Shown here one piece after another: positions 1-64,000 of a stretch of DNA of 64,000 nt. The translations under genes and the position numbers were made by a program. How positions within the stretch are numbered: the stretch's first letter is position 1; each line of letters starts with the position of its first letter. Source of the DNA: Morchella semilibera (Eukaryota > Ascomycota > Pezizomycetes > Pezizales > Morchellaceae); the NCBI GenBank assembly GCA_009192285.1, contig CM018604.1, positions 434,001 through 498,000 on the forward strand, read 5' to 3'. The notes below the pieces were generated by a model that was not told the origin of the DNA, made no database searches, and saw only the letters and a program-made list of their open reading frames with translations.

Positions 1-3000
1 ATGGAATTAATATGGGTAATATTTATAATAGAAACTCCCACAAGAAGATGGAAATTGATGCCAGGACAGCAAATATATACTGCACCAGATTTTGTCCATG
101 TCTCGGCCTGCCGGGCGACAGCCAACAATAGTATACGGATGAAGTGCCGCCACCAAATGGTAACTTCTGGGTATTTAGCAAATTTGGTCACTCTGTCGTA
201 GACCTTATAAGTAGTGGGTGTACGTACCGATTGTCGCTAACAAACGCGATCGAGCAACATATTGAGAATGAGAGACGAAATACTAGGCTGAGCCTTGACT
301 CGCCTATGGATAGCTACATGCCTAAGATTTATGCCTTAACTAAGTCATGATTGTTGCTCCCCAAGGCTTCTAAAAGATCTGGGTAAATGGTGCCCGCTAG
401 TAAAAAAAAAAAAGAGAGATGATATATGATGAGACGCATACACTATCTCAACCCCAGCCCATCATCTCAAGGGATATACTATGACACGCTCTAAATACAA
501 GGGAATCGAATGTTCTCTAGTGGATAGGATAGCAAGAGAATGGTAACACTAGCCTCGCTGTACGTGGTGAGACCTTTTTTCTACCCTCCGTCCTACTAAG
601 GCTAGCTACAGCCGTATAAGGAGGAGGAGAAATTATTACTATTTGGAGCTTTGGATATACTTGCGCTCCACGAAAAAAATTGGGAGAAAGATTCTTACTT
701 TAGGATTGACGCAGGCTCTAATAATTTATTGTTTTATCTGTTGTTTTGCTAAGGTTTTCTTAACTTGTGATCCGCGGGCTTGTTGCGTCACATAAAATAC
801 ATGTACTTTACTTCATATGGATAGAAGAAAGACCTTTATGATGTTTTTTTATCAAAGCTAAATCTCTCTTGCGAGTGTATGACGATAGTGTGGACTAATA
901 TAAAAATACTACAAGACGAACCACACCAAAATAGGGATGGGCACGAGACTACTATAGTTATAGATTATATAGAGTACTTTTAATAGTGGAAAGATTATAA
1001 TTCATAGATTATCACTCGACTATGAAACCTATGAGGTTAAAAGCGCAAGGGCGTCCTAATCGAAACCGGACATCGTGTAGCCCTAAGTGACAGGTTTTTT
1101 TAGTTGAAAGTAGTGGACGCGACCCAGTTAATTAAATGTAAAAGGTGGGAGGAAGAAAAAAAGAATAGTGCCCTGATTGGTATTAGGATCCAAGCTCCAC
1201 CCACAGCTCGATATATATCACCTACATGCTGGTTTCAAGGCGTATTATCACTACACTATCAAGGCCTGTGATTCCTTGAAACTTAAGCAATTAATTTTTG
1301 TATGGGGGTTTATTGAGATTTTATGGGTTTATAGGGCCATTCCAGGTATTACGTGTTGATAAAAAAAAAGGGCGGGACGTTGCAACGAGGTGCGACGAAC
1401 ACCGTGATATCAACCCTTTAAGCTCTCAAGCTACATTCTTAACTAACACACATACTAACCCACTAGTATTTTTGAAATTTTTCTTATGAGTTTGGGACCT
1501 GATTTGTGCAATTGTGGTTGCGGGGTTCGACTCGTTGCGTCCCACTTTTTTTTTTAACCTGATCAGTGCGCCTGCGGCACACTTATCTGACACTGGCCCA
1601 TTTAAAGTTTCGAACTTTTAGAGCCGGCCCGATGACTAATTGTAAGGTGCCCAGGCGCACAATAAGGTTTTCTTCCTTTTATTTCTTATTGCTATCCCGC
1701 CTCTTTAATTTCTTTTCCTATCAAACTTTAGTAAATATCTGTGTCAGCCCAGCCCAGCACAGGCAGAAGCTGGTCCTCAAACCCCTTTCCCCCCATCCCC
1801 TACACACTTGCAGTATCAAGTCTCCGAAGACCGACTCTCCACTCCAACAATTTAATCCATCCATCCTCACCGTAGTCGAGTAGAGGTAATTGCTTCACTA
1901 CGATCTCCCGTTGTTGCTCACTCATTAATTCCAATATCTTATAGGACACTAGCGAGTAACAGCGAGGGAGGCCTGAAGACCACAGGAGGGTAGACGATAG
2001 ACGACCCATCTTTGAGTAAAAGCCGTGTAGATGGGCGAGCCCGATGGGAATCGTACCTGCGTTGACGACGGTGGGTTCGAGGGATCGGTCCCAGGCACAG
2101 TTTTGTACACTGCTGGCTAACCTAAACCAACAAACAAGCCCATGGTACGGATCTAAATGCCACGTCTGCGTGATATCATCGTATGAGGAGATTCTAAGTT
2201 GAGTAGGAGCTGAGTTGAGCCCTGGATATCAACGAATCTCAACTCCATGAACTCAATTCATGTCATCGGGGAATGGATAAAGAGAAAATCCAGCCTTGTC
2301 GATGGTTCAAAAGGCTGTCAGACTAGGCAGACTGTGAGTTGGCGGTCTCTTTACTTCTTCTTGTGTTATTGCGAGGTGTCCGTACGTCCCTGTGCTGTGC
2401 CTTCACCGAAAAAAAAGGGGGGGGCTTTATAGGAGTAAAATTAGGATGGACACGTTCTTATGGTTGTCCGAGCCCACCAGCGCTTTGGTATCAGCGGTGA
2501 AGTTTCGCTATCTCTTTGTCGCCAGCAATCACTGCAAAGGGTGCTAATGGAACACCCGCATCTAGATATTAAAGTGCATATAAATATAGAAGGATATCTG
2601 TTCGATCTTCGGGCTTCTTCCCGTGGCTTTATCAATTTTTCGGGACTTCCATTGCCCGAGAACTATAGTTGGAGGCTGTACAAAAAAAAAAACACCATAG
2701 TTTTTGGTTGATGGGTTGATTTTTCCGAAAGGCTAGTCCTAGTTGGCCATGTGGTTATTTCCCGTCTATTAGAATGCCGGCCATTAGTGCGCATCTGGTA
2801 CCTAAATACCCATGAGGTATGCAAGTTTCCAGCCCTTTAGTTGTTCATGGTGTGCAATATCAGAGGTAGAAACCCTCCGGCTGATTATCAATTCGAAAAG
2901 CTATAAATGGCAGTTCCACCAAATATCTGGTTACTATATGTGTATAGCGGGAGGCTTCGGGTACAGCCTTTCCAATAATTACGTCCCCTCGATCTTCCAA

Positions 3001-5304
3001 GTGGTGTGGGTACCTTTACGTAAAAGTTCTAGGGTGATATGGTTCCCTCCCCCTTCTTATGGTATTAGCTTTAGATATTCATTCTGAAACCAAACAGACT
3101 TCATAGCAATTAGTTCCGGTCTTACTCAAACCTGAACCTCGCACCGCTCATGAAAAAAGCAATCAATGAATGTTAATCTCACTCCAGTGGCCAGCTACTC
3201 ACCGGGATCGAGTGTAATCGTGGCAATTCTTGCCCCCAAGTATAATCTGAGAGGTTAAAACTTCCCTCTGAACAACAAATCAGGGGAGAATTCGGTGCAT
3301 GGCATTTGAGTTTCTGCCCGGATCGCGATTGATCAATTGGCCACAAGGGGATAGAAAGATTCACTTTGAAACGTTATGGATTTCAAACCGTCAGCAGGTC
3401 GCTAGCCGGTAAATTACATATGATACCCAAGATCTGGGATCAATGAAACAAGCACTTGTCTTTGATGTATAATGAGTGGATGGGTAAGAATACCGTTCCC
3501 CACTCCCCGCATGAAGGCAAAGACGTGGTCACCTCTACAGGTTGGGCTGGCGCCTGTTGTGGGGGGAGGGGAGTACCGGCGGAGGTAAACCAAGTCTAGA
3601 TTCTAAGACTTGTACCATCCATTCGATCCGTCGGTCTATTTTCTCAGTCTGATTAGCTGTTGGCTCGACAACGGGGGGGGTTTTAAGTTTCTCATTCCAA
3701 ACTCAGCAGTGGCACAGCTAGGAGAGACATCGCTAATCGCATATTCCGCTCAACCAGAAAAGTTTTTCTCCCATTTCAAGGCAAGGAACCGCAACCTAAG
3801 CCCGTACGTTAGTGTATGGTGGAAATAGACGTACTGAGTAAGGGATAGCCCATCATTGCCGCTACTACATACCTCCTTCGTCTTGGCAACACTTCCTCCT
3901 TTCAATACTTAGCAAATACCCGGTAAAAAAGCTTCTTACAGACTACTCGAAACTCATCTCACCCCCACAACCCCTCACTGCGGACAGAGACGTCGTCGTA
4001 ATCACTCGGGGGGCTGAGTTTTTGCCAAGCCTCGAGTGATACCCGATGACTCCTGTCCTCAACAATACCGCAGTTCTGGGTAGTTGATATACCTACCTTT
4101 CCACAACTACTCATATGTATGTGTTACCATTGGCTTTGTCGTCGTCGTAATCCTCTGCCGACATAGCCGGATAAAGAAAAACAGGCTTGAGACCACGAGT
4201 TCTCCTGCAGCTTTGACTCATGATTGGGTTTTTTTAACACGGAGACTTCTCTCTCTCTTTCATGACGATGATGCGTCGCGTACGCAGACAAGAAGTAAGC
4301 TTAACTTTGCCCGAGCTACATACGTCCTAGTAGCACCCGTTGTGCCTCATCTACTAAAAACAGGAGCACTCGGATCAGCTCCGTCCCACGGGTATATGTA
4401 GATATACGTACTACTCACTAGATCTTCTCTTTCAATGATCGTGATGATGGAATGATTGATTGTTTGGGTGGTACCTACTATACATCTAAACGGAAACAGA
4501 AAAGTGGTATGTATACAACCCCCCAACCGCCCAGCAATTTTCATATATTGTGTCGACGCTAGGGCCACCTTTCAACTACATACTTATTTACCTCTGAGAT
4601 CAAAAATTCACAAATAAATAATTTTATACCAAGACGGGACCTACAGCTGGTTATCGAATCGTTGCCTGGGCGTACGTATTCATTCGTCCCATTGCTAGTA
4701 TTCCCCTCTACCAACATAGACTATTGCTAATATGCAAGCATTCACATCAAGTAGGTAAATTGAGGTCTCATTCCAAGTCAATGTAAATTGCCTAGATATA
4801 TCCATGTCTGCTCTAGATCCTGGAGGATACGCCTCACCACCACACCACACACACTCTGCCGAGAAAAAAAAAATAGAGAAAAGTAAAAGGCATAAAAACA
4901 CGTAGCCAACCCTGTATTCCCCAAACCAAATAAACAGATCCCCAAACCAAGACAAAAAGGAAAAAAAAAAAAAAAGTAGTAGACAACCAGAAGGATATAA
5001 AAGAAAAATGTGGAGTCACTCCAAAGAAGTAGTGGGGAATCTGTCGCAATAAGGAAGCGCTATTCGCCTAAAAATAATAACAGTAGAGTAAAGCAAAGCA
5101 AAGAGTAGTAGAAGACCAGAAGAAGAAAAATCAAAGAAATTCTAACGAACGTGTTTTTTCCCCCTAAAATACCCATTTCTCTAAAGCACAGACTTGACCA
5201 GTTAATGATGCTACACAAATACGCCCGGCCCCGAGACTAACTCCCATCGTCACACATAAAATGGTCAGAGTATACGACCAATTCCCCGAAAAATATTGTT
5301 ACGA
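1..5304. other. Gene-free left flank
   Basis: No convincing gene was found in these 5.3 kb. All open frames are short, lack splice-extended partners and have no recognisable protein motif. The tract is AT-rich with A- and T-runs. It holds two copies of the dispersed CGAGTGAT-N6-TGA motif (1002-1018 on the minus strand and 4033-4049 on the plus strand) and one TACATGTA palindrome near 804. A tRNA-like GGTTCGACTC box near 1525 followed by a T-run was examined and rejected. Confidence 0.6.
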
Positions 5305-7036: not shown

Positions 7037-7068
7037 TGCAAACGTGAAGGCAGGAGCCTTTGTAGAAG

Positions 7069-7745: not shown

Positions 7746-10700
7746 ATTTGCTATGCTAATTATTTTTTACAGGCCCAGTGCTTATGAGTGGATCAAATAA
7801 TTCCGTCACCCCCAGTACTTTTTTACACCAGTTGGCTGAGTGCACTGCTTCTCGGCCGTTGTCGCTTCTAACAATAAATTCTGTGAGGCAGCGAAAAAAA
7901 AAAAGCTTCTAGGAAACGAACGAGTAAGAGTACGAGTTACACGCCCAAACAGAAAGCCGCAGACTGCAGCCTAAGAAAAGGTAGGTATCACATCGTGGGA
8001 AGGCGGGTATCATGGCGTCTCCGCAGAAGATCGTTATAATATACATACAACATATTGTACCGGGTGCTTTACCTAGCATTACTCCACACGCCGCCGCCTC
8101 ACTCTCGGCCGAACTCCAGATAATTTTTATTTTTGAGATACGTTACCGTTTACACTCACCAGCCACTGGATCAGCATATAAACAAACCATGCGCCTAGTT
8201 CTCACACACAAGTTTCGTTGAAAGTTCTAAAACCTTTTCCCTTTACTGGCCCTCGAACTCTGGTCCTGGAGATTGTGGGCGCTTGGCATCAACAACTCCT
8301 TCCTTCCCTTTCTCACGAGCTTACGTCACGTACCCTGGTTCCTGTATGACGATAGGGCTTGGGGCTAAATGCACCCGGTACTCTATGTGTGGCTTGCGGA
8401 CAGGCTCAGAGTTACTATTAATAGATTTGAGGCTCTGGTCCCCAGGCAGTCATAAAAGGAAATCCGAAACAGAAACGATTTACGGTGGCTGATGAATTAT
8501 TACAAAAAAGCCACACGGGTTTTCGGACATTTGCTGAAATGGGGTGGGTTATGTAAGGATAGGTACCGGACCGTGCTCCAGAAGAAAATGACGGAACTTC
8601 CCGTTTATCTCCTTCCCAGACCCGAAACCCACTACCGATGCTCTTTCGGAAATCTAGCTAAGGAAAAATGGTGAAGCGATCTTTCGGTTAGACATGCTTG
8701 AAGATCAAATACTAACCTACTAATACCTGTGGGCCTGACAAGCTTCTGTGACCGATTCTGGAACGTGTATCATCTAAACGCTCCTGAGACGAGCGCGAAC
8801 TAGGTATCGTACCTAGCTCCCCTAATTCGGAAAAAAAAAGGAGGGGAAGAAAAGTTTCTAAGCTCCAGAGCTAATAGTAGGTTGTTTCGTTAGTTGTGTG
8901 GGTATAAAAATTCTCGTCCGTCCTATCATGCCGATACCGTTCCATCCGTGAAACAAAACATTCATGTTGACCTTTGAATGCCGCTGAACCATAGGTACAA
9001 GTATACCTCGGCAGTGGTTCCTGCCAAATAAGTTCAGACGCCGAGGTCAGTGCGATAACAATATGAAAGCTTAGTTAATTGCCGTCCCTGGAACTTTACT
9101 TAGAGTATAGGGTACCTTGACATTGAGTTGACTTGGCTCTTGGACCCTTCAGATATTAACAAAGAGTAAAAACTTCCTCGGGATATATATTCATTTCTAG
9201 ATTAAAACTACATGCAAAGGCCGACTCAGTACATATCGATTTCTTTCATCCAGTCCGAGCGGGGCCAGCAATCATACTATCGATATTGCCGTTATGCATG
9301 ATGGAATACTCCGTAGCCAACCCCTCCCTCTGGGTGGGAAGGATGAGCTTGTTCAGGAGTCTTCTTCTGGGCCGTTTCATCGGACAAACCCTCCTAAAGC
9401 AACTTATGGCGCGCTCCGGGGAGATCTCCTTTCCAGGGCCAAGAACCTTCGTGGGGCCGGATTTATGGATACAGCACTTGACTCTATGCAGTTGTGGGTA
9501 TGTTCCGGACAAGTGTGCTAAAATGTTTTTTGACGATCGGGATATTCGCCGTCCGCTGGGTACATGTATGTACCCTACTTTGTGAGCACTTGCTGGGTAG
9601 AAGGGAGAAAAAGCAGGCATCCTTTGGCGGGGCAAAGATCCAACTGAGAAAAAGGTCCTTGGTATTAACGTGCCAGCGCTTGATTGCATACATGGCCCGG
9701 GCTGTCACTGTCGCTTGTGGTTCAACTGTCGCCACTCACAAACACCGGTAGCAAATTCCCACTGGAACGTCAGAAAGAAGGTGGGTGCTAACGGGGAAGC
9801 TAACTTATCTAAGACGAAGTGAAACATCAAGAGCTTTGGTACTGGGCTTCTTCTAACCAAACCAAGGCGAAACTACATTAAGGGGGGTAATGATATTCGC
9901 AGATTGGAATTTCATGCAGATGATTCTCTGGAGAACATACCGGAGTAAATCTTTCTACTCTACGCGAGCTTAACTAAGGCGATGAGTGCAGTATCATTGA
10001 CCATCTAACTAAATATAGGGAGGGAATACGGCATGATTAATTGTAAGGCTGTCCCTGGCCCCCTTGGTGGTAAGCCGTCTTGATATATCCAGGTAATCTT
10101 TATTTACCTAATTCGCGAGGCAGATTATAAAGTCAGCCCTGTGAGAACGTCTTTCTAATATCCGTACGACGTGGTGCACTGCCCGCTCATCTCAAGGCTA
10201 GAAGGAGTGGGTAATATATGGAATTCCCCAAACAGTAATCAACGAATCCCATAAACCCACGAAGCACGATTGTTCCATAGGTAGCGAGTTCAGCATCGCT
10301 AACACCTGGATTCTGGATCTGTTCTGTTTTTCTTTTCTTGATTTGTGGTTTTTATCTTTGATGCGGATCGATTCATTACTACTGGCCAAGTTTGTTAATC
10401 GTTGATGCACCTATAGCTATAGGTCACTAGACTACCGCATTGCCACTAGACAGAGTAGGGTTCTCCGCTAGATGCAGCAATTTCGACTGGTGACTGCATC
10501 CGTCCCCAAGCGTTCCTCCAATCGGCCAAACCATATCACATAGCGAGTGATATTCTATGATCTATCTATCTGAGCCATATTTTGTATATATTTTATTATG
10601 ATCGTCGGACTTTTTAGTATTCACAAAAAAAGAAAAAAAGAAAAAGAAAAAAAAACATCATGTGAGATTTTAAAAAAACTCGACTCCCAGAAAGTATATA

Positions 10701-13700
10701 CATGTAGATATGGGTATCGGATAAATTAACGCCAGGGCCACAATCCCGAGTCTCCGTGGATCGGCCGAAGCCAGCCACAATATTGTCCCGTTACCGAGCG
10801 AATAACACAAAACCCATGGCATGGAAAATTGTTACCCTGCGTTCAGCTGAACAAGGTTTAGCTCTTTGAGATTGATGTGAGCATGAGGGGGGAACCTGTT
10901 TTTTTTATCTTTTATTTTTATTGATGCCGCCGTGGCCGTCTATAACTGTGCTAAATATCCAGATATCCCTGAGGTCGTCACGTCAAAGTCGCCTGTACGT
11001 CTTTGTGGGTGTGCGGAGAATCATTGCGCCCATGCATGTCTGAGGGTGTACCAGCTATCTAGCTCAGACGCTTTGATCTTCCAGTGGAAACTAGTCTACG
11101 CATAGGCACCCTCTACATACCAGATTACTGGAAAGGATGTTGCTTACCCATTGGTTTCTATTACGTGCGTGGGATTTGTCCAAATTCCGAATCATTTCTC
11201 ACGATCGACTGCTATCCCTATCCGTTTATTTATTTGTAACTTATACATGTGACCGATATCCATACAAAAGATTGTCAACATCGGCGGTAGAGAGTACATG
11301 TATGTACTAGATGAGCACATGGGTGGCATCTTGACCCACGATAATAGGAACGACAAGCGGGGAAAAAAGCGTGGGCCCCATAACAGAGAAACCCCCCCCT
11401 CCCCGAAACAGGCATATACGTACTCCAGATACAGCCTTGTTTTTCTGTTTCCTGGTCCGATATTGTAGAGAGTTCGCCGCCCCCTTTACCGTTTGAGAGA
11501 GCTGAACACAATTTACCCATTCTCTCTGATATCATTGACCTCGAGGAAAGATTTACAGCTCATCCCGAGAGCTCTAATGGCTGGAGAGCGTATCAAAAGC
11601 ATTCAACCGTATCAAAGTAGATGTAAAAGGAACTAGCCTATACAATAAATAAAGCTCAATCCCGGATTCGAAGTACTGGTTGCCGGAAGTTTCTTTTTGT
11701 TTCAAAATCCGGAGTGATAACCTCTACACTAATCGAGCACGCAAGTACACCTCAATCAAACATTTAAAATCTAAAGCTGACATCTTTTAGCTTCTTACGG
11801 GGCTCTGATATTTACCTATTTGCTCCTGTTGATCACATAATATCACTCGTTGATTGGTAACACCAAAAGCTCAAAACACAGTTTGAAAAGGTAATATACA
11901 GTAAACCTTGCGCATGGCTGCAACTTGCGCATACCCTATTCTCAGGACCCTCGGTATCATCTTACCAGCTATCCTTAATCCATGGAGTCATCACTTCACT
12001 TTACAAAAGAAATCACTGGATAAAAAGTTGCACTTAATAATTCCAGCCTTGCCCGTTGGCGCATATATCGATTGCAATTTGCCATAATCGACAGTACCAA
12101 GATCACTAGCGTGTGTCTGAGGGATCGACGCCCCCTCAAACCAGATCGCTCCGAGTAACTCCAAATCAGATGTCATTGCCAACAAAACTCATTTCTAGGC
12201 GCCTGTACTTGCCCCGTATAATGGACTTGCATGAACCATAATTACCGAATAAACGGTATTCCGTTGGATTGGGCGGTGAATAATCACTCAATATTGATCT
12301 AGACCCTAGGTAACTAATGATGCCAGAATATCACTCATAAATGTGATGAGTTGCTGATACTGAGTGGTCCTCTAGTTCTAAACTGAGTTTTTATGCATTG
12401 AGATTAACTTTTAGGCCAAGCTTGTGATAATTTGTATATCTCCCGTCTCCGCATGTGTAAACGTAGGAGCATAGGGATGTATCGTACCTTTTACAACTTA
12501 GAAGGACCTTTAAGATTAGCAAGGCTGTTCTTTCTAGACTCGTGGAACCTATCTCTTTGGCGTTCCTGTGTTGGGGGGTCATGCTTCTCGAACGCACATT
12601 AGACTGCTAGTATCATGATCAAGAGTTAAAGATTTGCCGTTGCAACGCTTCGCTTTGAAACAGAGCGGGAGATGTCTAATATCTACAACCTAGCTGAGTC
12701 CTTGCAATTACTTAGCCCAATAAAATTATAGGATCTGCATGTTCCTGACTTAGCTTCTGCTGCCGAGGTCCTTCATGTACGCCAAGCCACTTACATGCAC
12801 CTTGGCATGTAAAACCAAACAGCCTATCAGCCATCACAGTTGAATCTTTAGGAATAGAATCGGAAAGTAGTCCTGGGTGTGGGTGTTTGATGTTGGAAGG
12901 CTAGGCTTCATCAACAGGGCAGAGTCCGGGTAATTCCTGAAAGTTTTGGTCAATTACAGGTCACGTGCATGCGATGCACTAATGCGACGATTTGAATTCT
13001 CAATTACAACAGAGAGAAATAGAAACCAAAATACCCACATAAAAAACCGGATAGACAAGTTAAAACGGAGTTTTCACTCCTGTCAACCCCGTCCCCGGCC
13101 TGGTATAATGAGCAGTAACACGATTCATCTACGTAATTAAGCAGAATCGTGCCCATCGATTAACCAACGGGCACGGTTGCGGGCGAGTTAACGACAGTTA
13201 GGCGAGGAGGCTGGGATAAAACTCCCGTTATATCAGTAAGGTGAAACCTAGGGTGCTGTTACAATTTGCAATTTGGCGCTCAGTGTATGTCCCCTCCGAT
13301 CCTGACAGCTTCTACGGTAATACGTAGGTCGCCCTCCCATTCATCGTCGTCAGCAACCATCCGCGACGTGGGGTGGTTATCTCGTCAATAATGACCAATA
13401 TGACCATCTGGCGCAGCAGCTGATCCGGGATCCCAATCATACATCTGCTTTTCTCCTCGCATGTTGGAAATGTCGTCCCAAAGGACTGAATGGATGTGTC
13501 TGGGACTTGATAGATCCCTCGTGAATCCCTTCGAAACTGGAGAGATCTACGTACCCTTATCGTTAGTATGGTGGCGCTGTATACTATCTGATAGTATTTA
13601 CATGTAGGTAACATATACTAGGGAGTATTTGTAGGAGCTATTTTGAGCAAGATGAAAAGGATAGAGAACGAACTGTGTATCTTATTGATCTATCGAAGAG

Positions 13701-17945: not shown

Positions 17946-19730
17946 ATTGTTAAACTTGCGTGAGCTTTATCTAAATACTTGTATGAACTTTTTAAACCCT
18001 GGAACCAACAAAAGGTTCGAGTATCGAGTCAGAGATAATACTTGAAAAATGTCTTCTCTGACGGAGGGTTGACGGAGGGTTAACGGCCCCTTTCGATTTA
18101 CTAGGTAGAGTAGACCCGAGTGTAACAGGCGCTGAGAGGAAAGATTCAAAGGCACAGAATGGAAAATTTGATGTCGTGATTGAAGAGATAAGAAGGAGAC
18201 TCCCAGTGAAAAGGCTATATCGATGAATTCACAGGTGGGGTGTAAACGTGTTTTTAAAGTTATTTGGACGTAAGAAATCAAGTTGCCCGATACTATGAGC
18301 TTATCTTGACTTTAACGATAACAAAAAAAAAAAAAGTTTTTTCTATGCGAGACCTTGGAACCAATTTCCTGCCAATATCAGCTCATTTTTCTAACGGTCA
18401 AGGGTTAGTGCGGAAGTTTATGCATTAAAATAGAGTTCTGGGCCCCGTTGGGTACTAGGGTGGTTTGTATTGTGGCTATTTTTTTTTTCTCTGCCTGCTA
18501 TGGGGAGGGAGGAAGGCTCCTAGGGAAATACTATGAGGGAATGTCAACCTCGAGAACTTTCTGAGATACTTCTGAAGGGGAGTTTAGTGGCTATGACTTC
18601 TGTGTTGTAGTTGATCGTGATGGTCTTGGGCAGCGAAGTGTGGTTACCGTACCTGAGCTTAGAAGTACGTGTTTTCTTTGCGACGTGATATCTGTGGTTG
18701 GTTTAGAAAGGGTTGGTATAGTAAGAGAGAGTTGCCATAGAACTACTGTTCCCACCCCCCAAACTTACCTGGCGTAGCTGGTGGGTATCCCCACTAGAAG
18801 GACATGTCATTATCGCCGAGTGATATCCCATGATCCCACGTGACTCCTAGTGAAAAAATTTTCACCCCAAAAAAAAACTAGTCCGGTTCTGTAAACGTTA
18901 GAATCAAGAAGCCACAAAAGCTAAACGAGTCCGACTAGCTGGCTAGCTACATGTAGCTAATAACTCTACATTTCCTTTCCATCTCCACCTTTCTATGTGA
19001 ATTCGTCCATTTTTCTTCCACCTCTACCCCCCCACGAGGGGACCTCCTCCCCCCCAAAAGACAAGCCAAACTTCTTCTACACTAGCTCTACCATAACCTT
19101 CTGACAAGAATAAGGGGGGAGCATTTTGAAAACCCTAGCCCTCGAGTGATATGCTATGATCGCACGTTTTTAACTTACGCTGCTACTGCTAAATGCTCTA
19201 ACAGACTCAGTGTATTAACCCTGTGGTCTACACACAACGACCGCCTGGCTTTGCCACGCCTCGTGTTGTGATTGGGCTGACGGAAATATATGAGGCTTGA
19301 GATCGAGACCCGATCGCAAATTAAGACACCTAAAACAGACCAAAAAAAAACACAGGAGCGACTGTAAAAGAAAACTAGCAGAAGGTAAAACCTAGCAGCA
19401 GAGTTAGCAGCATCTAAGCCATGTGCGCTTCGAAGAGTGGGGGTTTGTGATGGACCATGATTTAGCCTGATTATGATCCTTAGCAGAAACCTAGCGGTAC
19501 TGCTAGAAAGTAAAAGTCAGGGTTGTGGTATGGTGAGCCGTTGAAGCGTAAGTACCACCCCCCCCCCCCCCCGCAGCTTCCACAAAACAAATCTTCTGTA
19601 CTCCAGATAGTGATTGTGCCAAAGGTGACAGCCTGACGGTCCAGTCCATGATTCCGAGTAGTCACATAGTGTTAGCAGATCCCCATAACCCGAAAGAGTA
19701 CAGCCGACACAAGAATTAGCAGACCACCGG

Positions 19731-19793
19731 TATGAATTATCAATCAATCAATCAAGCAGTATGAAGTATCAATCAATCAATCAATCAAGCAAG
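19731..19793 (+). repeat. Tandem duplication with (AATC)n core
   Basis: There are two adjacent units of about 29 and 33 bp. Each starts TATGAA-T/G-TATC, runs through three or four AATC repeats and ends with CAAGCA. It is a simple local duplication in the gene desert. Confidence 0.8.
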
Positions 19794-22516
19794 CAGCACC
19801 AGTTCCTCCATTTGATCGAGTGATATGTGGTGACTACGACCAAATTCCCCATTATGAAGATATTTCACGGAACTGGGGACATTGGAGTCATAGTGTTGGA
19901 ACTAACACTAAACTTTCAGCCGGGCAATGGCTGTGTAGGAGCTTCACTCTGTTCTGTCGGGTTTTTCTTCCACTGGCTGCGCAAGGCAGCTTTCTATGGG
20001 ATGGGAATACTGCCGCGCGAAAAGATTTTCTCACGCCTGGGGAATGTTTGCTAAGTCTCTATCTTATGCTAGTCAGCGTACTGTTACCGAGTACCTTTAA
20101 GTGCCTGAGAAAATTTATTACCTCTATATCTATTGGAGCTATTAAAAATGGCTCTCAACAATGATGCGTTGTTGGGCGTGTATACTGCCTATTAAAGGGA
20201 CTGGTTGGTGGCAACGGTGGGGTTGGTAGTGGGCTAGGAGCTTGGGGAGATTTTCAGGGTTATGAGGGAAAGGTATGTTAGAGTTTTTTACTTGGAAACT
20301 CTGTTCTCACAGAGCTAAACCTTTCAAAACCGAGTTTCAAGCCCATCACTTTGTTTTAGGCAACTACAAGACATGCTCTAACTTCTAACTTTCTAAGCGG
20401 TGTATCTCGCCTCTTAGAGAGCTTCGCTTGCTTCATGAAGTATACGAAATGTAGAATATCTGCTACTATACTACGGGTGTATACGTATGGGTAAGCCTGT
20501 TGACCGTGAGAACTGTTGCAACCCCACTGTCAACAAACTTGCTCCTAGAGTACACCCATAGTACTTCAATGGTGTTGGCGAGTGATAACCCATGACCGAA
20601 CTCCACTGGTACAACTTTGCAAACACTTCCCCCATCGCTAGAAGACCGGTCACTGGGTTAATAAGAATAATAATAATATAGTACCTAATAACCACATAAG
20701 CTTCTTATGGCATGGCCAGCAAAACTTCCTATGCCCGTGAATTTTTCTCATGCCAAGTTAATAGACAGATTATCGGCATTGCATCTCTAAATTTACATTC
20801 TCTTAACTACATGTACTCATTCTTCACAGTAACTACATGTATTCAACTAACCGCTTTTTCTTTAGCTCACCTCCTCCCGAGCCGGTGAGCATATATGCCG
20901 AGTGATATTGTGTGATCCGATTGGATCTCCAACCTAAACAGGTACACAGACTCCCTAAGCGCGGACTCTAGCACAGAGTTTCAGCGCAAATCAAGCCTTG
21001 GTATGTAGTACAGTAGTAACACGTCTTGAAGCTAGCATGTAGGAGCTATGAGGGAAACTCAGGTCCTAGAGCTAGGGCATACATGTAATTCTCGGTATCT
21101 ACCTTTTTGTCCCTCTTTCTACGTGAGTAGGCGGTGCTAGCTCCTTTCTGTCACTCAAGACTACAGAATACTTTTATTTTCGATATTTAAATGCTAGCTC
21201 TCAACTCCAACTGTTTTTTTTTAAAAAAAAAAATAGTTATAGCTGCCAGCTGATTACATTGACAAAGGCCGGCTTTCGGCAAGGTCAAGCCCGTTTCCGG
21301 GCACATTATGTCGATAGTTGCTAATTGTCCATCTAGATCTCCAACCAACCAACCCAACCCCGACCCCGACCCCAACCCCACCCCCAGCACCACTACAGAA
21401 CACCCAACCGAGTGATATTCCATGACCCCAACCCCTCACCCACGCACCACACTCCACCCACGCATAAGTGTGTGTATCCACCCTTTCACACCACCCTCTA
21501 CACCACCAAACACACTCCAGCTTTCCTCCGCGCGCCAAGCCACGCACTAACCCACACTGTCCACATCCCCGATTCGCGAAATCGGGCATCCAAACAGCGC
21601 TCGCAGATCCCCCGGATCGATCTACAGGCAAGGCTAACATAAAACCCTTCCTGCGCGGCGGGAACAAGAAAACAAAACCTGGTTGGAGGGTCCCGCGCGG
21701 GATCTTCGCCCATATATCTGCAAGCCTGCGTTGCATCATGCCGGCAGGTTACATATATATGCCAGATCGATTGCGGTTCGGCCGTTGCCCCGCAAAAACG
21801 GTTTTGCACATATATGCCGGAGTACCCTACTGGAGAGAGGGGGTGGGAGGGAAGGAGCACATATGGTCTTAGCACGTGGTGAAGCTTTTTCTTTTTGTTA
21901 TTATTGACCTGCGGCTTTCCATTATTATTATCGTGGGCTAACACACGTGGGCTATATGTTTAGCAATAAGGATTAAGCATCCGGGATACTATGATATATG
22001 GCGACGGTGGATTACGGATCCTGCCGTGCATCTCACACCATCGAAATCTGGGCGGGAGAGAACCAGATCTCTGACCCAGGTAGGATGTGTGATATACCAG
22101 TAGATCTCATCAATCTCGGGAGTTTTGGGGATTGTCCGCGATAGTCCCAAGACCCGGCCACCCCCCCCCCCCCCGGACTACGACTGGCCGTAGAACCGAC
22201 TCATGGATCGAGTGATGGCCCATGAATAATTATATAACCTCCTGGACACGACCACCACAACCACCTCATCTCAGCCTACGCCTATGGATGGATGTAAACA
22301 ACGGATAAGGCTGCGTCGCATGGGACGCGCTGGATGGTGGTGGCGGTCATGATGGTCATTCTCCGGCCCAACCGATCAATGCCATCAAGTAGAAAAGCAA
22401 AACACAACGTCGTCCAGAAAAGCAAAACGCATAGTCCGTTTTGCAATGCTTCTATTATGCTTATCTGTGCAATAATCATCGTTTTATTGTACATAGATAT
22501 CCGAGTAAATGGTTGT

Positions 22517-22556
22517 GGTGGGAGCACGTGGGAGCACGTGGGCGAATGGGCGAATC
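22517..22556 (+). repeat. Tandem short repeats carrying two CACGTG E-boxes
   Basis: GGGAGCACGT is repeated twice, followed directly by GGGCGAAT repeated twice. The overlap creates two CACGTG palindromes about 10 bp apart (near 22525 and 22535). CACGTG is the core bound by fungal bHLH factors such as Pho4/NUC-1, but no gene lies close by, so a regulatory role is not supported. Confidence 0.6.
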
Positions 22557-25500
22557 TGTATGGACGTTGGGTTTTGTGGAGGCTATAAGTGCTAGTTGAT
22601 AATTTATGCAAGAATGATGCAAGCCTCAGGGCAAATCAATTGAGAGCATCTCGCGAAAAGTCATCGAGGGCTTCAGTCTAACGTGGGTAGAAAGAACAGA
22701 AGAGCACAGTTACAGGACCATCGAGTGATATCGCGTGATTACACCCATCTGCTGTTATTATGTACATGTATCTGTACGGCCGACGCGACCAAGCTTAGGT
22801 AATTACAGTATAGCCTATTTTGGGGGGGCCGAATAAACTATCCGCAGAACTAGAATAAATTAGCAATAACAGTCCCGACGTGGTTGGGAATACATGTACA
22901 TACATAAGTTATACTGCGTCCATCACGGGTCAATACATTAGAACATACTTTCAATTAGACGTTCGGCCTCGCCGACAGATAATGTAATGGTTAATCCAAT
23001 AAACTCGGGTCAATATCTCCATGCAAGACTATCTAACACTATAATATTGTAGAAGTAGAGTAACTATATTTATGTACGAGCAAAGGGAAAAAGCGAGGTC
23101 GACACCCGCACGCGACCTGACGGAGATTTATATGGATGGGGTAAAAACTGGCTAAATGGATTTCATGAGCACTCGCGTATCGTAACGTTGTGTTACAGAC
23201 CTACACCTAAACTCACGGCAGTAGTTTCGTGCAGCCGTCACAGCTCGATAGCGATTGATGGATGTATGCGGGCGGACAGACAGGTCCTTTTAAAAGTCCA
23301 CTACATATACCCCCTTCACCCCTTGGAGCTGAGTCGACGGGAAGGCAGAAGGGGGAGCGGGGATAGATCTCCGAGCCTTTCCGTCAGGTGTAGTAAATCG
23401 CGGTTCCTGCTGTGTTACTGAGATGAAGAAAATAAAACAGGATGGTGATCTGCCTGCGTGTGTGTGCCCTGGTGCTGCCCGCGTTTCACAGCAGGGCAGG
23501 GTCATGGTGAATTGTTTAAACAATATTTCTTTTCCTTTAATTTAAGTCGCTGCAGCATATGGGCTTGCTTATTGTTGCTGGCGAGCCAATCATATGTTCG
23601 ATGAGGCTCGCTTGTCTCACCATCACAGGTTGGGTGCACCTGAAGAGTTTATTCTATCAGTAGGTTGACTTTCGGTGCTTTCGCTGATCTTGTGCGAAGA
23701 AGTGGGTGGCGATGTTGGCGATGCTGGTTGTGGTGTTACTAGTTAGCTCAGTAGAGATATAATAACCTATTGAATATACTCGAGCCCAGTGGAGTACATC
23801 ATGCTTATCCATTCCAGAGCAAACCAAAACTTCTCTCCCCCGATACAATCACTCTCCGAAAGTATTCACTCCCCTTAGAGCACTAGCCGAGGTTTTCCGC
23901 GTCGCGGTTTAATTTCCTTCTCTCTCGTTTTCTAGCCAGCAACTTAGAACCTCGAAAGCTAGAGCCTAGAGTAAGGGAGGGAGAGAAAACTCGTCTCGCT
24001 ACTTGTAGTGTCCTGACCTTCCTGAACTGGGCCGCTATTGCATACACCCAAAATCAGGAGCTTGGCGTATTTTTGTATGATATGCATTATCAGTCGCGTT
24101 CAAAAACAGTTAGTGATCCATGTATGTCTTGGCAAGAGCGTGGGCAGCTAACCATAATATGTAATGGTTACTAGTTTACTCAGAGGAGTTACCCCCACGC
24201 ACCATGCACCGCACGGTGCCTGTTCAGTTCCTGACTGTGCAACAAGCCAGATTCATGCATGCATGCGATTGTAGAAAATGTGATCTGCTCTTCTCTGCTC
24301 GCCGAGTGTATGCTTTCGAATTCGGAACTCTGAAGAGGAGAACTCTAGTTGAGATCTCTGCATGGGTATTGTTGATGTGGAGAAGGCTAGACTGTAGTGA
24401 TGGCTTTGGCCTAATATGGATGACAATTCTATAAGGAGGGGAGGGGATAGAAGGCTTGAGGGCTTGTCTCTCTTTCTCTGGGGGTGGTTACGAGGTACTT
24501 AGAGTAGAGTATTGTGTCATCAGGCAACCAGTGTCTCGGGAACTAGACGGTTTACTAATACGAGATTGTGGATACTTGTAGCCTTCTAAGTCTCGTGATG
24601 GTCTTGCTGATCTGGTTTCGTTTCGTTTCGTCTTGTCTCGTGCAGTAAACACCAAGTGTCTCAAAATTGTGTCACAGCACCTGTCCGGTGAGTTTGAGAG
24701 ATAAAATGCGGGTTCAAAAGTCACTTATACGGGCTACGAAAGAAATACATCAAAATCGAGTGATATATTATGATTACCCGCCAAACGAACCTACAACGTT
24801 CTACCGCTGTCATAGAAAAATAAAATAAAAAGGCTTATATTTTAATGGCCTACTGCAGGGGCGAGCGGTAAGCTCGTGTACTTTATATCCGCCAGAATAC
24901 CTCTTCATGTTCTTTAAGTTCACCCCACGCATAGAAGTATCATTTGAGAAGAGACTGCCAACTAGGAATATCCTTCCACAACCAGCTAGCTTACTAACTG
25001 GAAGGGGGTGTTGTAGTCCTGTAGATTAGAATAGATACGAAATTCTGAAATTAGATGACTATGTTTGAGGGCTGTCCTAATTTATTTTAGGAGAAATGTG
25101 AATTTCTCCTTATCAAGGGCCCACTCCCTAATCTATGCACATGTGTTCATGATCTAGGCAGGCGACTATCCAGAAGTACGGAAACAAGACTTTCGGTCTG
25201 TTGCGTAAGGAATGGCTTGGAAAACGTTTTCGGACTCCAGCGAGCCCAAGACCCCACGCGTCTCCCCTTTCACGCTGGTAGTACCCAGGTAGGCCGGGGG
25301 CATGATGTGATGCGCCCTTTATTCCAGAAGAAATGATGGATCTTATGGGTCCCAAACCGCTACCCGCTCTTCTTTCCGCCTCTTGTGGTTGGCCGACTCG
25401 AATCGAACAAATTCTGGGCGAGCTAGGATATTCGGGGAGCCCGCGATTGCGTCTGCCAGTCAACAAGAACCGTAACACGTTGATGCGCCACCTATCCCGC

Positions 25501-42333: not shown

Positions 42334-43824
42334 AGTAGATGTAGAGCCAAGGTTTATGTTGTGTGAATTCCGTACTTAAGTAGACATTATAATAGATCCT
42401 GCCAACTTGGTTATTTAGCACCCGGCATCGAGTCTCCGAGAAATCTTGAGGGATTTTCACAAAAAGCAGGGCCGAGCACTCCATGATCCACACAATACCT
42501 CTTCTCCTTCCAAACCCTTCCAAACCCTTCCGAAGTCTAAATCATTCTCCATCCTTCTCATAAGCACAACGATAAGTGAAGTTTAACTCCCGACCATGCT
42601 GTTGTGCCGCGCTGCCAATGGGCGTCGAATAATGTGCAGGAGAGCAAGCACAACTGCAGATGTCAAAAATACCTGCATGCATGTATCAGAAGGGCACAAA
42701 ACGACAAGCGGCTATGTGTAGAATATATACTCCTCTGGGTCTTCCCTCCACCCACCCCCATGAATCTTTAATTTGCGGCCACGCATAATTATAACCATGC
42801 ACGTACCCAGGCCTGGCAGGTTTCAGTTCATAGCCCATCACTCGGGCCCACCCTATTATGTCATCAACACGACCACACACAGGATTCGGCGACCGTAAAT
42901 TACTCTAGACTCTACTTCTCGCATGAGAACCTCCGTGTAGCCAGCGCAATTTCTTGACCAGGAAACACATGTATGTATGTATCTGTAGGGTAAACCGCGC
43001 GCTACTACTTACATGCAAAAGACTGTTCAGGGATTAGAGCAGGTAATAAAAAAAAACATTACTAATTTCCAAATCGGGACCCATTATTACGATTTACCCG
43101 GTAGCTCTACTTTACATCCCTACTCGCTCCTGGATCTGGATCGATGTGTAACAATCTTTTTTTTTAAGGGTAGTGCTATAACCCCACTAGGATTGCCATC
43201 ACATCCGGGGTACTCCCCCCGCCGCGGACATACACCTAGATCTAAAATACGATGTTAAAAGAAGATGTAAATATTTATGATCTACCTGCTCCATCTACCA
43301 GTTCCCATACTTGGACCGAGAGCGGCTATGTGTAAAGCGGGTGGGTACATACTTTCTTATATGCACGGGTCCTTCGTTAAACCAACAAATTTCCAACCGT
43401 GCATCGTTTGCATGACCAACACTCAATGGGGGAAAACTACATGTGCCCCTCGTAGTTACTCGACAGCAGACCGGCCCGCTTGCTTGCATATAAGTGCGAT
43501 ACATTTTTATTTTTTTTACTTTATACTTTGTATTTGTGCATATGTTCGGAGGCAAAGGTTTTAAATATAGAAATCCGTTCAACTTGAGATATATAGATAA
43601 GGAGTGACTCAAGTAACCTAATGAAATAGTAATAAATAGGTGAATAGTGGGGAGGTCGAAATGGATGCGACAAAATTGAAGCAGACAGGGGAATAAGCAC
43701 CATATTATTTAAACAGAAAACAAAACATACAAATCATACCCGTAACATCTCCACCATTCCATCCAATATTTTCTCCTGAAACTTAAAATTTAAACAATAA
43801 ACTGTGTTTTCATCAGAAATTACT
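42334..43824. other. Interval between convergent genes
   Basis: No gene recognised between the convergent EBP-like and tyrosinase genes. It holds three AAACCCTTCC-type units near 42508-42533 and a dispersed-motif copy at 42828-42844 on the minus strand. Confidence 0.5.
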
Positions 43825-48353: not shown

Positions 48354-50316
48354 TATGTGGCAAACAGTTCTGAGTTGAGTTACCTACATGTAATTCCAAG
48401 GCATTGCTGGTTACTCAAGTAATTACTGCACATGCTGTATTGCTATATAAGTACATAGTTGAGTCGATAACTAACATTAAGACAAACGGGAAGATCCGTG
48501 ATCCGGATGGTTCGGGATAAACCTACAGATGCTCTCCTGGGGGCATCACATCATCTGAATCTCTACGTGTTGAATGTGACGCAGTCCACCCATCTCTTCG
48601 CAAAATTGCCACGTTGCTGTGGTGACACTGGTGAGCGGTCCGGTAACCAGTAAAAGCTGAGCAGCCCCCAATCCAAGAGGATAGAGTGATCGGCCAACTA
48701 ACACTACATGTAGGTATCAGGTCAATCGATACTGCTTAAAGAAGCGAGTACTTTGATCGTCTTGTCATGCGTGTACAGCACTGTAACAAGCCTTACGATT
48801 TCAAGTAGAGTAGAGTGGGCGGATAGACAGCCGTTGGATGACTGCCGTGTTTTTGACGCGCAGAGGAGTTTTCTGATGTAAAGGTCACTTGTTCGATGCC
48901 AGGCACGGCAAAGTCACAATACTCTAGACATATGTACCCCTGCATCCGTCGTATCGATAACAAAAATAGACCTAGAAAAAGCAACATCACCATGATTCTT
49001 CGATTCTGCACACGCACAACAATCCCAACCATTAGGTATGGCTCATGACAAAGAGCAACCTATTCGGGAAACTGCTTCAAAGTGCATTTTACCCGAGATC
49101 TCATCTTCCCACTCCCCTCCCTACTAGTACGGCCAAGGTAGCCCAAAACACGACCCGAATGAGCTGGATCATAGACCGACCGCACGACTATTCACAGAAT
49201 ATGGATTAATAATACTAATAATACACAATAACCCTCTTTGGATGACCCCGTCTGGGGAGCAGATCGGAGACGATGACAAAAACCTCCGACCCAAACCGGG
49301 TTGGGAGGTGCAGTTGTTGGATTTCCCCGATCCACCATTTCAATTCGCTAAAGTATCCTATCACATCCTATAGGTGAATTTTCATATATCGTACAGGTTT
49401 CAATCACTTATAGGGTGGGCTGTGCATTTATATCGTGTTGAAATAGTAGCAAGTGCAATATCGGAAACCCATCAATTGAGTAACCTCCTATACCCAAAGG
49501 CAAACAAGTGAACATTACAGTGCCTTCAACACAGCATTTCAAAATATTCCCCATCCCATATACGGAGACGACATTTCCTAACGCAAAGGAAATCTTGCAC
49601 TTATTTTTTGCACTATGATAAATACACATATAATTGATACTCGTAGGTTCATAACGTTTCCAGACACGGCCGCTATTGCATGCCATAAAAAAAGTCCTTG
49701 GCGCAATATCAGTCGTGTCGTTAGCACATGTATCAACTCGATATAAGTATATTCGGCAGACGCGAAGTTGGAGTGTTTCTATTAAATGATCCGGCAACTA
49801 TTAATATATATTAAAGTCACCATTCATGAAAGAACTTCTAAAAAGTAAGCCCCATAATCCTTTTTGTTCACTACCAGTAATTACTCTCCCAGACATCGCG
49901 GGACTGCGCGCGTCTGAGTGTTATTACCGACTGGGTTTCAACCGCGACAAGCATCCCCGCCGAAAGTCAGAGTTTTTATCCAAAGTCTTAAACCCGGTGC
50001 TCCAAACTGTCACGGTAAGATATACCACAAATGGGTGAGACATTCGGTGCACCGAGACTAAATCGTTTTCAACCTGTACTTACTGCATACATGTACTTAC
50101 CCACTGATTAATTTTGGCTGAATGTTTCAGCTGGACTTTACCCAAATACTTCATCATGACCAATCACTCGGTCTCGCAAGGGGACAAAGCTTCAATAGTT
50201 TTTTTTTTTTTTTTTTTTGAATTCATTAATTAAGTTTCAACAGTTAGAATGGGTGCGTTTGAATCCACAAACTTTGCTTCAACAGCTTAAGCTCGTCGCT
50301 CAAATTGAGAAATGAC

Positions 50317-54321: not shown

Positions 54322-55514
54322 ATGTCTGTTCCGTCAAGCTTCAAACTCAACACTGGTGCTTCCATCCCATCGATCGGTCTAGGTCAGAAAAACCCCACCA
54401 GATTCTTGGCGTGCTATTTTTCACTAAATAACTCCGGTTATAGGAACCTGGCAAGCTCCTGCTGGTGAGGTTCAAAAGGCTGTTGCCCACGCACTATTGA
54501 AGGCAGGCTATACACATATCGATTGTGCTTGGTGTTACGGCAACGAGGAAGAGGTTGGTACTGGGCTAAAGGAGGCCTTTGATAATGGCGTAAAGAGAGA
54601 AGATATTTTTATCACTACCAAAGTCTGGTCGACATATCACTCTCGTGTAGAAGAGGCTCTCGACAAGAGTCTGGAGTTGTTGGGTTTGGATTATGTCGAC
54701 CTGTACTTGATGCATTGGCCTGTGCCGCTGAACCCGAACGGAAACCACGACAAATTCCCCACTAAGCCAGAAGGTGGACGTGATTTGCACGAGGGGTGGG
54801 ACTATATCAAGACTTGGAAGTTGATGGAGAAATTGTTGGAAGGAGGAAAGGTTAAGGTGGGTTTTTTTGCTTCCGGCTTCCCGACCCCCCTTGATTAAAG
54901 CGCGCTAATTAAACGGTTGTTACTAGGCTATTGGTGTGTCCAATCACTCGGTTCCCTTCCTGACCAAGCTTCTTAAAGAGGCCACTGTTGTTCCTGCGGT
55001 CAATCAAATTGAAAACCACCCCTTGCTGCCACAGGATGACGTGGTGGCGCTGTGCAAGGAAAATGGAATCCTTGTAACAGCCTATTCACCTCTTGGATCT
55101 GCCGGCGGGCCATTGTTGAAGGAAGAGAAGGTGTTGAAGGTTGCTGAGAAGCATGGCGTCGATGTTGGAACAGTTTTGCTAAACTATCATGGTAGGCGGC
55201 CATCCCTCTATCCTAGAAAGATTTACTTATTAATGAAAATAGTGAACCGTGGTATTGTTGTTTTGGCGAAATCCGTGACCCCGTCAAGAATCGAGGCGAA
55301 CAACAAGCTGCTTAAGCTTGATGAGGAGGATCTTGAAGTATTGGGAAGCATATACAAAGAGAAGGGACCCAAGAGGTATATAATCCGTCACATATATTTA
55401 GCCTAAACCCTGCGCTAATGATAATACAACAGATTTGTTACTCCACCATGGCCCATTAACTTCGGGTTCCCTGACTGGAAACAAGGTGGTGCCAACGTTT
55501 TCGAAGCTGCTTAA
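54322..55514 (+). CDS. Aldo-keto reductase, GCY1/glycerol dehydrogenase type
   Basis: This is an NADP(H)-dependent cytosolic carbonyl reductase. Five exons, 54322-54382, 54444-54856, 54927-55191, 55243-55375 and 55433-55514, give about 317 residues, normal for the family. The catalytic tetrad is complete: D47 and Y52 (HIDCAWCYGN), K80 (ITTKVW) and H111 (LMHWP). The cofactor-binding AKSVTPSRIEAN segment and the C-terminal FVTPPWPINFGFPDW typical of fungal GCY1/GLD enzymes are present. Fungal members reduce glyceraldehyde or dihydroxyacetone to glycerol, and some serve in D-galacturonate breakdown. The first donor (GTCAGA) and fourth intron are less canonical, but all phases fit. It lies 0.46 kb upstream of the hydroxyacid dehydrogenase, on the same strand. 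Confidence 0.95.
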
Positions 55515-55973
55515 ATTGGCTTTCATGGACTGGGAAGTGCTTCTATTGATTGGTAACTCATATATAGAAGTGATTCTATAATAAAAAAAGAAATCCAATG
55601 AGTAAATTTGATAGAATAAAAGTCCGTTCACTACTGCACACATATGGCAAATCAGGTGAAATGTAATCAACGAACTAAACAAAAAGAAAAAAAACCTCGC
55701 GTCGCGTGGTGCTTTGTACGAGTGAGAATCTATGAAAGGGCCGCTTTACACAAAATAGCGCACGCTACTGCACGTAATGGGACGTGGGGGTTGTCAAACG
55801 ACGCAATCAGAATCAATGCAACTCATCGAGCGGGGCAATTTCGGTAAATTTGCGGGGTGCTCACATCAGGCCCGAGGTTCTAGCAGTTTCGCCTCAGGAT
55901 TCATTGGTTTATATCTCTCTGAAAAGACCCTCCTCATCAATTCTCATAGCTCTTTGAGTATCCAACCATTACT
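55515..55973. other. Intergenic interval, AKR to hydroxyacid dehydrogenase
   Basis: This holds the 3' flank of the aldo-keto reductase and the promoter of the following gene. No specific site was recognised. Confidence 0.5.
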
Positions 55974-57269: not shown

Positions 57270-58997
57270 ATAGATGATGGAGGAGTACTGAGTGGGTGAT
57301 TTTAACTAAATTTGGTTATTTCCAAATTACTTTATTTATTACCATACCATCGCGAGCATACTATAACAACAATCTACAAAGGTTTAAGCTAGTCCCGTTC
57401 CCAGAGCTTTGTCAACTCGTCCCTAGTTCAGGCTACAGCCTTGAACTGATTCAATGTAAGTTTTTGTAATACCACATACAATCTACAAGAAAGATTGACC
57501 TCACCTTATGATATATCTATATTCGGCTCTTGGACCCCCTTCCATCGAGCCCTTTCCCCACCCCACCGCAACAGAGTACCTCTCGCCTGCCATATACCTC
57601 CGCGAAACATTCCTGCGCCGCGTAAGTCAGTGCCTTTCTCTCGGTAACGTGAGCTTTTGGCGCGCGCTGTTGGAGTGTTGGCGAGATAAAAAAAAAAAAA
57701 AAAAAAAGAACAGAAATAGAAAGAAAGGAAAGGGAGAAAGTAGTAAACCCACACAGGGAGAAGAACAAGTTAACCAACCGGCCGACCAATCAACTAAAGT
57801 AAGCAAACCACAATTAACGGCAAGCTATGTCAAACAACTAACGCCCCCCTATATCAGACAGAGAGCATGGGTCGACAATTAAATTCTTGCTAATATAATC
57901 CGGTTCATCGAAAATCACTCGGAATTTGAGCATATTGTGTTATACCTACAACCTACCACTATAACCCGTGCACGGCACGCGCGCGGCACGCTGATGTTTG
58001 AAGCGATGGGTTATACTAAAGTAGCTAATAGTTGGATATTGTTCTAGCTAGGATCGGTCATAATTGCTCACACATATAGTACGGACATCTTCCCGAGCCA
58101 TGGTTTAAACCTCTGCCAAGAATGAAAGCGATAATATAATAGTCGCGGTTTCAAATCGCCGCTATAGATTAATGCGCTCATTGGATTATTGTTATGGATT
58201 TGAAAGAAAAAAACATGCCTCGGTAGAGAAGTATGGTACGTAGTATAATGTAACGCCATGAAGCCGAAACCTGGCTCTGGGTACAAGTGAGCAGAGTGCT
58301 TGTCGGTGTATAATTTCTTCCCGAAGAGTCAATTACCGATTTACCGCGCGCGCATTATTGAGCGGTATTCAGACTGTCAAACCCCTGACCGGAGAATTAA
58401 GGAGTGCATGTCGTGCCAAGCACGGCGGAAATATATTCCGCGTTGAACTTTTGGTGGCTGGGTAACATACATTCCTCCGATGTCGCACCTACCCAAGTAC
58501 ATACTAGAAGAGACCGAGTGCGTATTCGAATTCGTAAATATACTAAACACCAACCACATCTGTTAATTGCCAATATAATACCCCTTAAGCTTCCATTAAT
58601 TCCATCTATCTTAGATTACATACATAGTACTCCCGAGTACTGCCATAAGCTTCTTTGGAAGTTTACTTATATGCTTACTTTTTCTTTGATCACATACATG
58701 TACAGAGTACATACATGCACTCTAGAAAGAAAGAAGGAAAAAAACCTCCGAGCGCAAATATATGCAAGGAACCCTTCCATGCGCAAGAATTACTAACTGA
58801 ACGAGTACATGTACCTAATGCCAATTTGTATCTTCCAAAGCGTCGATATTTGGGTGACGCGTCGTGAAGCTAGCTGAAGAAAGGTTTGATTGGGGTCTAC
58901 GCCGTTATCGGTTGCACTCTACCTACATGTAGTTGTGTAGTTGGGAGGGATCATGGGATATCACTCACTTTCGGTACGTTCGGAGTGTTGAGGTATT

Positions 58998-59032
58998 ATA
59001 CATACATACATACATACATACATACATACATA
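58998..59032 (+). repeat. (ATAC)n microsatellite
   Basis: About eight to nine perfect ATAC/CATA units, a simple tetranucleotide repeat. Confidence 0.9.
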
Positions 59033-61636: not shown

Positions 61637-61644
61637 TATATAAA
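61637..61644 (+). promoter_or_regulatory. TATA box of the pectate lyase gene
   Basis: TATATAAA lies about 180 nt upstream of the pectate lyase start, followed by a CT-rich leader (61660-61800) typical of highly expressed fungal genes. Confidence 0.6.
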
Positions 61645-61821
61645 GCATCCCATATCTCCTTCCAATGCCTTCTCATCATCAGTTCAGTTCACATTCACTT
61701 CATTCCTTCCATTCTTTCCTTCCTTGACAGCTAGTCCGTCAGCCCTTCCTTCAATCCATTTCATTACTTCCATTCACACTCGTTCGTTTTCCGGAAAAAC
61801 GCTAGACCTTACATCCTAGCC

Positions 61822-62916: not shown

Positions 62917-64000
62917 ATGCTTGGAGGCCTTTAATTTTTAATCTGGCCCAGTTGACCCGGCGCGCGCGGTCAATTGAGGATCGAATTGTTTATATATGTA
63001 TGGTCGATGGCGGAGAGATCGGTATTTTAGATTGATAGTTTTTTGTACTATATTATCAAAAAATAATAGCGCGGTTGATTCCGTGATGCTTTATCCTAGA
63101 TGCTTGTTATGCCTGTTTGAAGTGAGACTTTGAGAATACCGCCTTGGATCATGATCAGAGAGTGATGGCATACTGTTTCTTGGCACGAGTGATCGCCCAT
63201 GACCTAAACTCTTCTTTCTTGGCCCGCGTAATATGTACTCTAATCCCCCCCTCCTGAACCTCACATCGTAGATCAACCCCAATACTGCCCGGCCAGGGAG
63301 GTTCTGCAGCTAGAGTAGAGTACATCTAGGTACATGCATAGCTCGCGGAGAGCTTCCCATACCGGTACCAAGATCACTTTTCGATATCGTCCGTGGGCGC
63401 AAGTCTCGTAGTTCTAGAAGATGTGTGGATACATGTAGCTCCAACCACAAAGAACAGCTCGCTATTCGCGGGCAGAAACATGTATGTACATACCTTGTTC
63501 TATATTGCAGAGCCTCCCTGGGATCATCCCCACCCCAAAAACCCCCGGTATGAACAACGGAGCCAACACACTAGCAGGCTAGCTAGCTAGGTGCGTGGTC
63601 GTCTTGTTTGTTGTTATCGTCAAGGATAAATACATGCACACTCGAGGGAGAGTACTCTACAAGAAGTATGTACAGGATGGATGATGATGAGGAGCGGTGT
63701 CTGTCCCGGTTGTTTTATTACCGGTTGGGGCTTAGCGCACCAAGGGGTTAAACTAAGTTTTATTAACTCATGTCCCCGGTTGAGTTCGGTACGATCGAAA
63801 TGCCCTTTGAGCAGGGGTGTCCGATCTGTCAAATAGTAACAATGGGAATTTAAAACAGTAGTTGGTGATCACCAAGCAACCAAGATTTCACGCTACGGAA
63901 TCGGGGGGTTTTTGCTTTCCCTGGAGATGATCTTTTGCAAGTGCTTGTTATATGGACCAATATCGATATCAATAAGAAAAAGAAGGAAAAAACATTAACA
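62917..64000. other. Right flank
   Basis: No gene recognised. It includes the 3' flank of the pectate lyase, one dispersed-motif copy at 63186-63202 (+), a TACATGTA near 63432 and a GCTAGCTAGCTAG run near 63580. Confidence 0.5.

Follow-up and report, generated by a model that had tools for sequence, protein, structure and literature searches.

A sharp bipartite DNA motif with thousands of dispersed copies in the genome of the morel Morchella semilibera

We describe a bipartite DNA motif, CGAGTGAY-N5-RTGA, of which there are 7,438 copies in the 56,756,124-base assembly (23 contigs) of M. semilibera; reversed patterns, which served as the control for genome counts, gave 16. The motif was proposed from a sequence-only reading of one 64,000-base stretch (C2:434001-498000, here called the window), and with a genome-wide count hundreds of times above the control, the proposal stands. 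That reading had offered two explanations, a site for a DNA-binding protein and the core of a short element. We favor the first and reject the second. The motif is best read, with a probability of roughly two in three, as the selected, high-specificity site of one abundant putative chromosomal protein, a general regulatory or architectural factor.

Definition and copy number of the motif

An exact scan of the window returned the same 18 matches to CGAGTGATNNNNNNTGA, on the same strands, that had been reported from sequence alone. Nine of them form a cluster that is described below. The others are at 4033-4049, 10544-10560, and 63186-63202 on the plus strand and at 1002-1018, 11833-11849, 32319-32335, 42828-42844, 50154-50170, and 57905-57921 on the minus strand. 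The estimate that such a pattern should be very rare by chance was borne out, since 100 dinucleotide shuffles of the window had a mean of 0.02 copies and a maximum of 1. With up to two mismatches allowed, the window had 37 matches compared to 14.5 expected. These included the two copies already reported to have T at position 1 (26085-26101 and 58951-58967, both on the minus strand) and two one-mismatch matches that the earlier list had lacked. One of the latter, at 55719-55735 on the plus strand, has G at position 8. The other, at 38776-38792 on the minus strand, has a pyrimidine at position 14, lies within a predicted exon, and is probably a chance match.

The motif had originally been written with six free bases ahead of the second TGA. 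The TGA was confirmed, but the spacer had to be shortened: the base preceding this TGA was a purine in 18/18 window copies and in all 41 sample rows listed (two of these come from places that overlapping loci show twice). Since this purine is constant, only N5 remains as spacer, and the motif is written CGAGTGAT-N5-RTGA, or CGAGTGAY-N5-RTGA in the form used genome-wide. At position 14, a purine was found 7,438 times genome-wide and a pyrimidine 68 times (control, 16). Position 8 was T in 6,041 copies (2,997 + 3,044; control, 7), C in 1,397 (control, 9), and a purine in 1,032 (control, 28); among the places listed, the purine was G in all but one. Bases other than C at position 1 were also above the control (1,058 versus 94). 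Allowing at most one mismatch gave 12,188 matches compared to 683 for the control, which works out at ~1 percent for each substitution at a strict position, if the rest is divided evenly among the nine such positions.

The distance from one TGA unit to the other is 10 bp, as had been noted, and the spacer between the half-sites is rigid. A spacer of five was found 7,438 times genome-wide, and a spacer of four 84 times (control, 22). When spacers of 0 to 13 were scored for copies with T at position 8 in a 224-kb sample, a spacer of five accounted for 31 copies, one of four for 2, and one of eight for 1; no other length was represented. In the same sample, CGAGTGAT occurred 41 times, 31 of them with the correct second half, compared to ~5 expected by chance (4.9, standard deviation 2.6, from a slightly smaller sample); the ~10 occurrences lacking the second half are thus some twice the chance number. 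Among 100 sites, the spacer showed a preference for A at position 9 and for pyrimidines at positions 12 and 13, and position 18 was a pyrimidine in 27 of 36 sites. From the data on the spacer, position 14, and position 18, we define the site as CGA-GTGAY-N5-RTGAY, which consists of two direct half-sites 10 bp apart.

Sites of eukaryotic factors are usually degenerate and hold less information than would be needed for finding them. The morel motif holds ~20.1 bits per site, an estimate that presumes an even distribution of the remaining mismatches over the nine strict positions, compared to 13.3 bits needed for ~11,500 sites. An excess of ~7 bits, repeated in more than 7,000 copies, indicates that the motif either matters to the fungus or is written by some process. 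The mean density is ~1 copy per 7.6 kb over 56.8 Mb, and copies are ~2.6 times as dense in the window as in the genome on average (18 versus 6.8), largely because of its one nine-copy cluster.

In a scan of gapped ten-mers across 164 kb, the motif had the top excess ratio. Another word, CTAGCNNGCTAG, also scored highly in the gapped-word scan, with places in the window at 18935, 52582, 59392, and 63571. We rejected it as a second motif: it had 244 sites genome-wide compared to 55 for the control, and the places listed were mostly (CTAG)n simple repeat. The contig pairs C9/C10, C12/C13, and C21/C22 had identical matched words at shifted positions, and one locus on C9 (L013) was 100 percent identical to one on C10 (L014) across 9,758 bases. 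Hence, duplicated or second-haplotype scaffolds seem to be present in an assembly that is described as coming from a single-spore isolate. With part of the assembly present twice, the copy counts given here are inflated, by a tenth or so as estimated from the lengths of the contigs.

Placement relative to genes and flanking sequence

Gene models were made with an ab initio gene finder trained for this analysis, and start codons were used as a proxy for transcription starts. The models place 11 genes in the window, compared to ~13 expected from the published density for Morchella crassipes M10M26, whose genome report counts 11,565 predicted proteins and puts transposons at 5.9 percent (PMC7014384). 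The models missed at least one gene, that of an aldo-keto reductase at ~54428-55406, which holds no motif copy.

Placement was measured in the window together with ten loci, a sample of 164 kb with 35 copies, 18 of which are those in the window. None of the 35 copies fell within a predicted gene span, and these spans take up 44,075 bases (27 percent of the 164 kb). The chance of this result is 0.001 when the stop codons of the motif, whose TGAs block two of the six reading frames, are allowed for, and ~0.006 when the window cluster is left out. The earlier statement that copies lie outside exons therefore agrees with the ab initio models for all 18 exact copies in the window.

There was no preference for predicted gene starts in this sample. 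For 18 of the 35 copies, the closest gene end was 5′, compared to 48 percent of random intergenic points; excluding the window cluster, this was so for 9 of 26. The median distance to a gene end was 1,325 bp for the copies and 1,565 bp for random intergenic points. On the basis of these 35 copies and ab initio start codons, with no bias toward predicted gene starts, a simple promoter element is disfavored.

The window cluster extends from 18817 to 24773 and comprises nine exact copies, all on the plus strand (18817-18833, 19143-19159, 19817-19833, 20579-20595, 20899-20915, 21409-21425, 22209-22225, 22722-22738, and 24757-24773; scan P value of 0.00075 given 18 copies). It lies within a 10.6-kb stretch that has no predicted genes and that is bounded by divergent genes at 17945 (minus strand) and 28575 (plus strand). 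No Pfam match was found in the ten longest listed stop-free frames of this stretch, which could possibly be a regulatory region or a long non-coding RNA. Regular spacing of the motif was rejected in favor of mild clustering, since the 99 gaps between plus-strand sites with T at position 8 on contig C1 had a coefficient of variation of 1.21. Four repeat-rich loci (L009, L016, L017, and L020) had no copies and a fifth (L021) had one. However, 4 of 10 other 10-kb loci (L015, L019, L022, and L023) likewise had none, so that depletion of the motif in repeats is only weakly suggested.

The flanks of the motif could not be aligned, as had been reported, in 44 contexts with 250 bp on each side, which argues against the copies being fragments of one transposon. 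Apart from overlapping contexts, simple repeats, and matches 20 to 44 bases long, the only sequence shared among the contexts came from one pair of subtelomeric paralogues. The five spacer bases vary freely, as do the flanks. In the 44 contexts, no 5- or 6-mer recurred often enough at a constant offset to pass the count cut-off within 400 bp. Since the flanks of these contexts were unalignable and held no sequence that accompanies the motif at a set distance, we rejected both a transposon and the suggested core of a short element.

A putative binding site and its closest alternative

The core is exact, the spacer and the flanks are free, the spacing is rigid, and the places number in the thousands; together, these features fit a selected protein site. 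An origin by copying is disfavored because copying would carry the flanks along. We infer selection from the shape of the motif and not from divergence. The putative protein would touch the DNA through two modules that read RTGAY-like half-sites in the same orientation, 10 bp apart, with contacts that include the CGA ahead of the first half-site. One helical turn between the half-sites would place them on the same face, and such spacing would suit a pair of similar modules, within one protein or a dimer. Purifying selection would keep the sites exact in their thousands; they occur on both strands and are intergenic in the sample. The factor may sit on its site constitutively, exclude nucleosomes, and insulate or organize adjoining transcription units; it would most likely serve as a general regulatory or architectural factor. 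The 44 contexts count against this reading in that they showed neither elevated A/T runs nor a partner motif.

General regulatory factors of yeasts bind promoters. Reb1, Rap1, and Tbf1 are abundant, sequence-specific factors that act at promoters or telomeres, and Rap1 recognizes direct hemisites through tandem Myb-like modules. The morel motif has the thousands of dispersed, high-specificity sites that characterize such factors. However, its lack of promoter bias in the sample differs from the textbook yeast factors, and an architectural or boundary role is possible. It also differs in sequence from the sites of Reb1, Rap1, and Tbf1, and the Reb1 core TTACCCG was at its chance level here (22 versus 20.2). 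Abf1, a general regulatory factor of budding yeasts, has the site consensus CGT-N5-RTGAY on this strand. In the Abf1 site, the bipartite form, the rigid N5 spacer, and the RTGAY right half are all like those of the morel motif. In contrast, the left half is CGT in Abf1 and CGAGTGAY in the morel, and for this reason we rejected identity with the Abf1 site; the absence of promoter bias is a further difference. Abf1-type sites were only mildly raised here (26 versus 17.4; standard deviation, 3.9), and the Abf1 family (PF04684) had no match in this genome and none in 14 control genomes either. Abf1 sites are described, in a passage of PMC8708972, as dispersed and as having roles in transcription, replication, and silencing.

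The half-sites can also be compared with those of other systems. Homeodomain proteins of the TALE class bind direct tandem TGAC or TGAT half-sites, and the morel motif similarly has direct tandem TGAY half-sites, but the TALE spacings known to us are different. The top five motifs from ATAC-seq in Aspergillus include E-box, SltA-like, and bZIP motifs, as listed in a part of PMC8419926, and none of these three is the morel motif. A report of the motif was not found among the matches listed from open-licence literature, which is weak evidence of absence. With the motif letters as the query, none of the matches listed had the motif in its title or abstract, and the titles pointed to primers or oligonucleotides. 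The main text of the M. crassipes M10M26 genome paper never uses the word “motif” (PMC7014384). The 17-bp consensus, for which tolerated variants are known, could serve directly as bait for the putative protein.

The closest alternative is a subclass of the binding-site reading, in which the motif would act as a CTCF-like boundary or stall cohesin and would serve loops rather than single promoters. Animal CTCF sites are long, high in information, and dispersed. The morel motif is likewise long, high in information, and dispersed, and its density of ~1 copy per 7.6 kb and lack of promoter bias would suit a boundary site. Neighboring copies, however, follow no orientation rule: 54 of 99 neighbors were on the same strand among the first 100 listed places with C at position 8, a thinned list (P = 0.20), and we rejected such a rule; the window cluster is one-stranded. 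We regard a boundary or cohesin-stalling site as a tentative possibility. Its more specific form, a lineage-specific CTCF-like architectural protein in morels that has a strict bipartite site and uses it about ten thousand times irrespective of promoters, is slightly more doubtful. If a CTCF-like reading were true, the motif would be, to our knowledge, the first sequence-defined insulator or boundary system in a filamentous fungus. Passages of one paper state that CTCF is not found in fungi and that fungal boundary elements and loop limits are incompletely characterized (PMC10246852), which leaves room for a boundary site and is the context that gives the motif its relevance. The same passages, on the other hand, name heterochromatin or convergent genes as possible fungal loop anchors (PMC10246852), which counts against a CTCF-like role.

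Local context and the remaining alternatives

Copies that are dispersed over both strands and lie outside predicted genes would also be compatible with a replication origin, or with another control point of replication or recombination. Across the motif, GC skew shows a tendency to change from G to C, but the effect is weak (P values of 0.005 to 0.74 over six window sizes, from overlapping contexts and uncorrected for the six sizes). A/T runs near the motif were not elevated in the 44 contexts, which also speaks against origins, and we consider a replication or recombination role unlikely.

Nematode 21U-RNA genes have a promoter motif, and a sharp motif with thousands of copies and variable flanks might similarly mark thousands of small non-coding RNA genes. 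Given that A/T runs were not elevated and that no 5- or 6-mer at a constant offset within 400 bp passed the cut-off, we regard a promoter element of this kind as very improbable. Least probable of all is that the motif is left over from a mobile or self-copying element or is written by a mutational process: a few copies lie in repeats, one 17-mer with C at position 8 recurs among the places listed, and subtelomeric paralogues have sites in common, but flanking sequence and the bases of the five-base spacer differ freely from copy to copy and the five repeat-rich loci hold one copy among them (4 of 10 other loci also being empty).

These paralogues are on contig C1 (L001, positions 1347-1688; L003, positions 1355-1665). 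Motif sites are common to L001 and L002/L003. In the alignment, one paralogue has T in place of C at position 1 of the common site, and the same paralogue has an intact extra site 26 bp upstream of the altered copy. In this single case, from one gapped alignment, the change would fit turnover of a site under selection. Among the places listed on C1, some complete 17-mers recurred, for example with the spacer ATCAT after C at position 8 or with the spacer GGGTG and A or G at position 1. This recurrence suggests that a few repeat families carry or mimic the motif.
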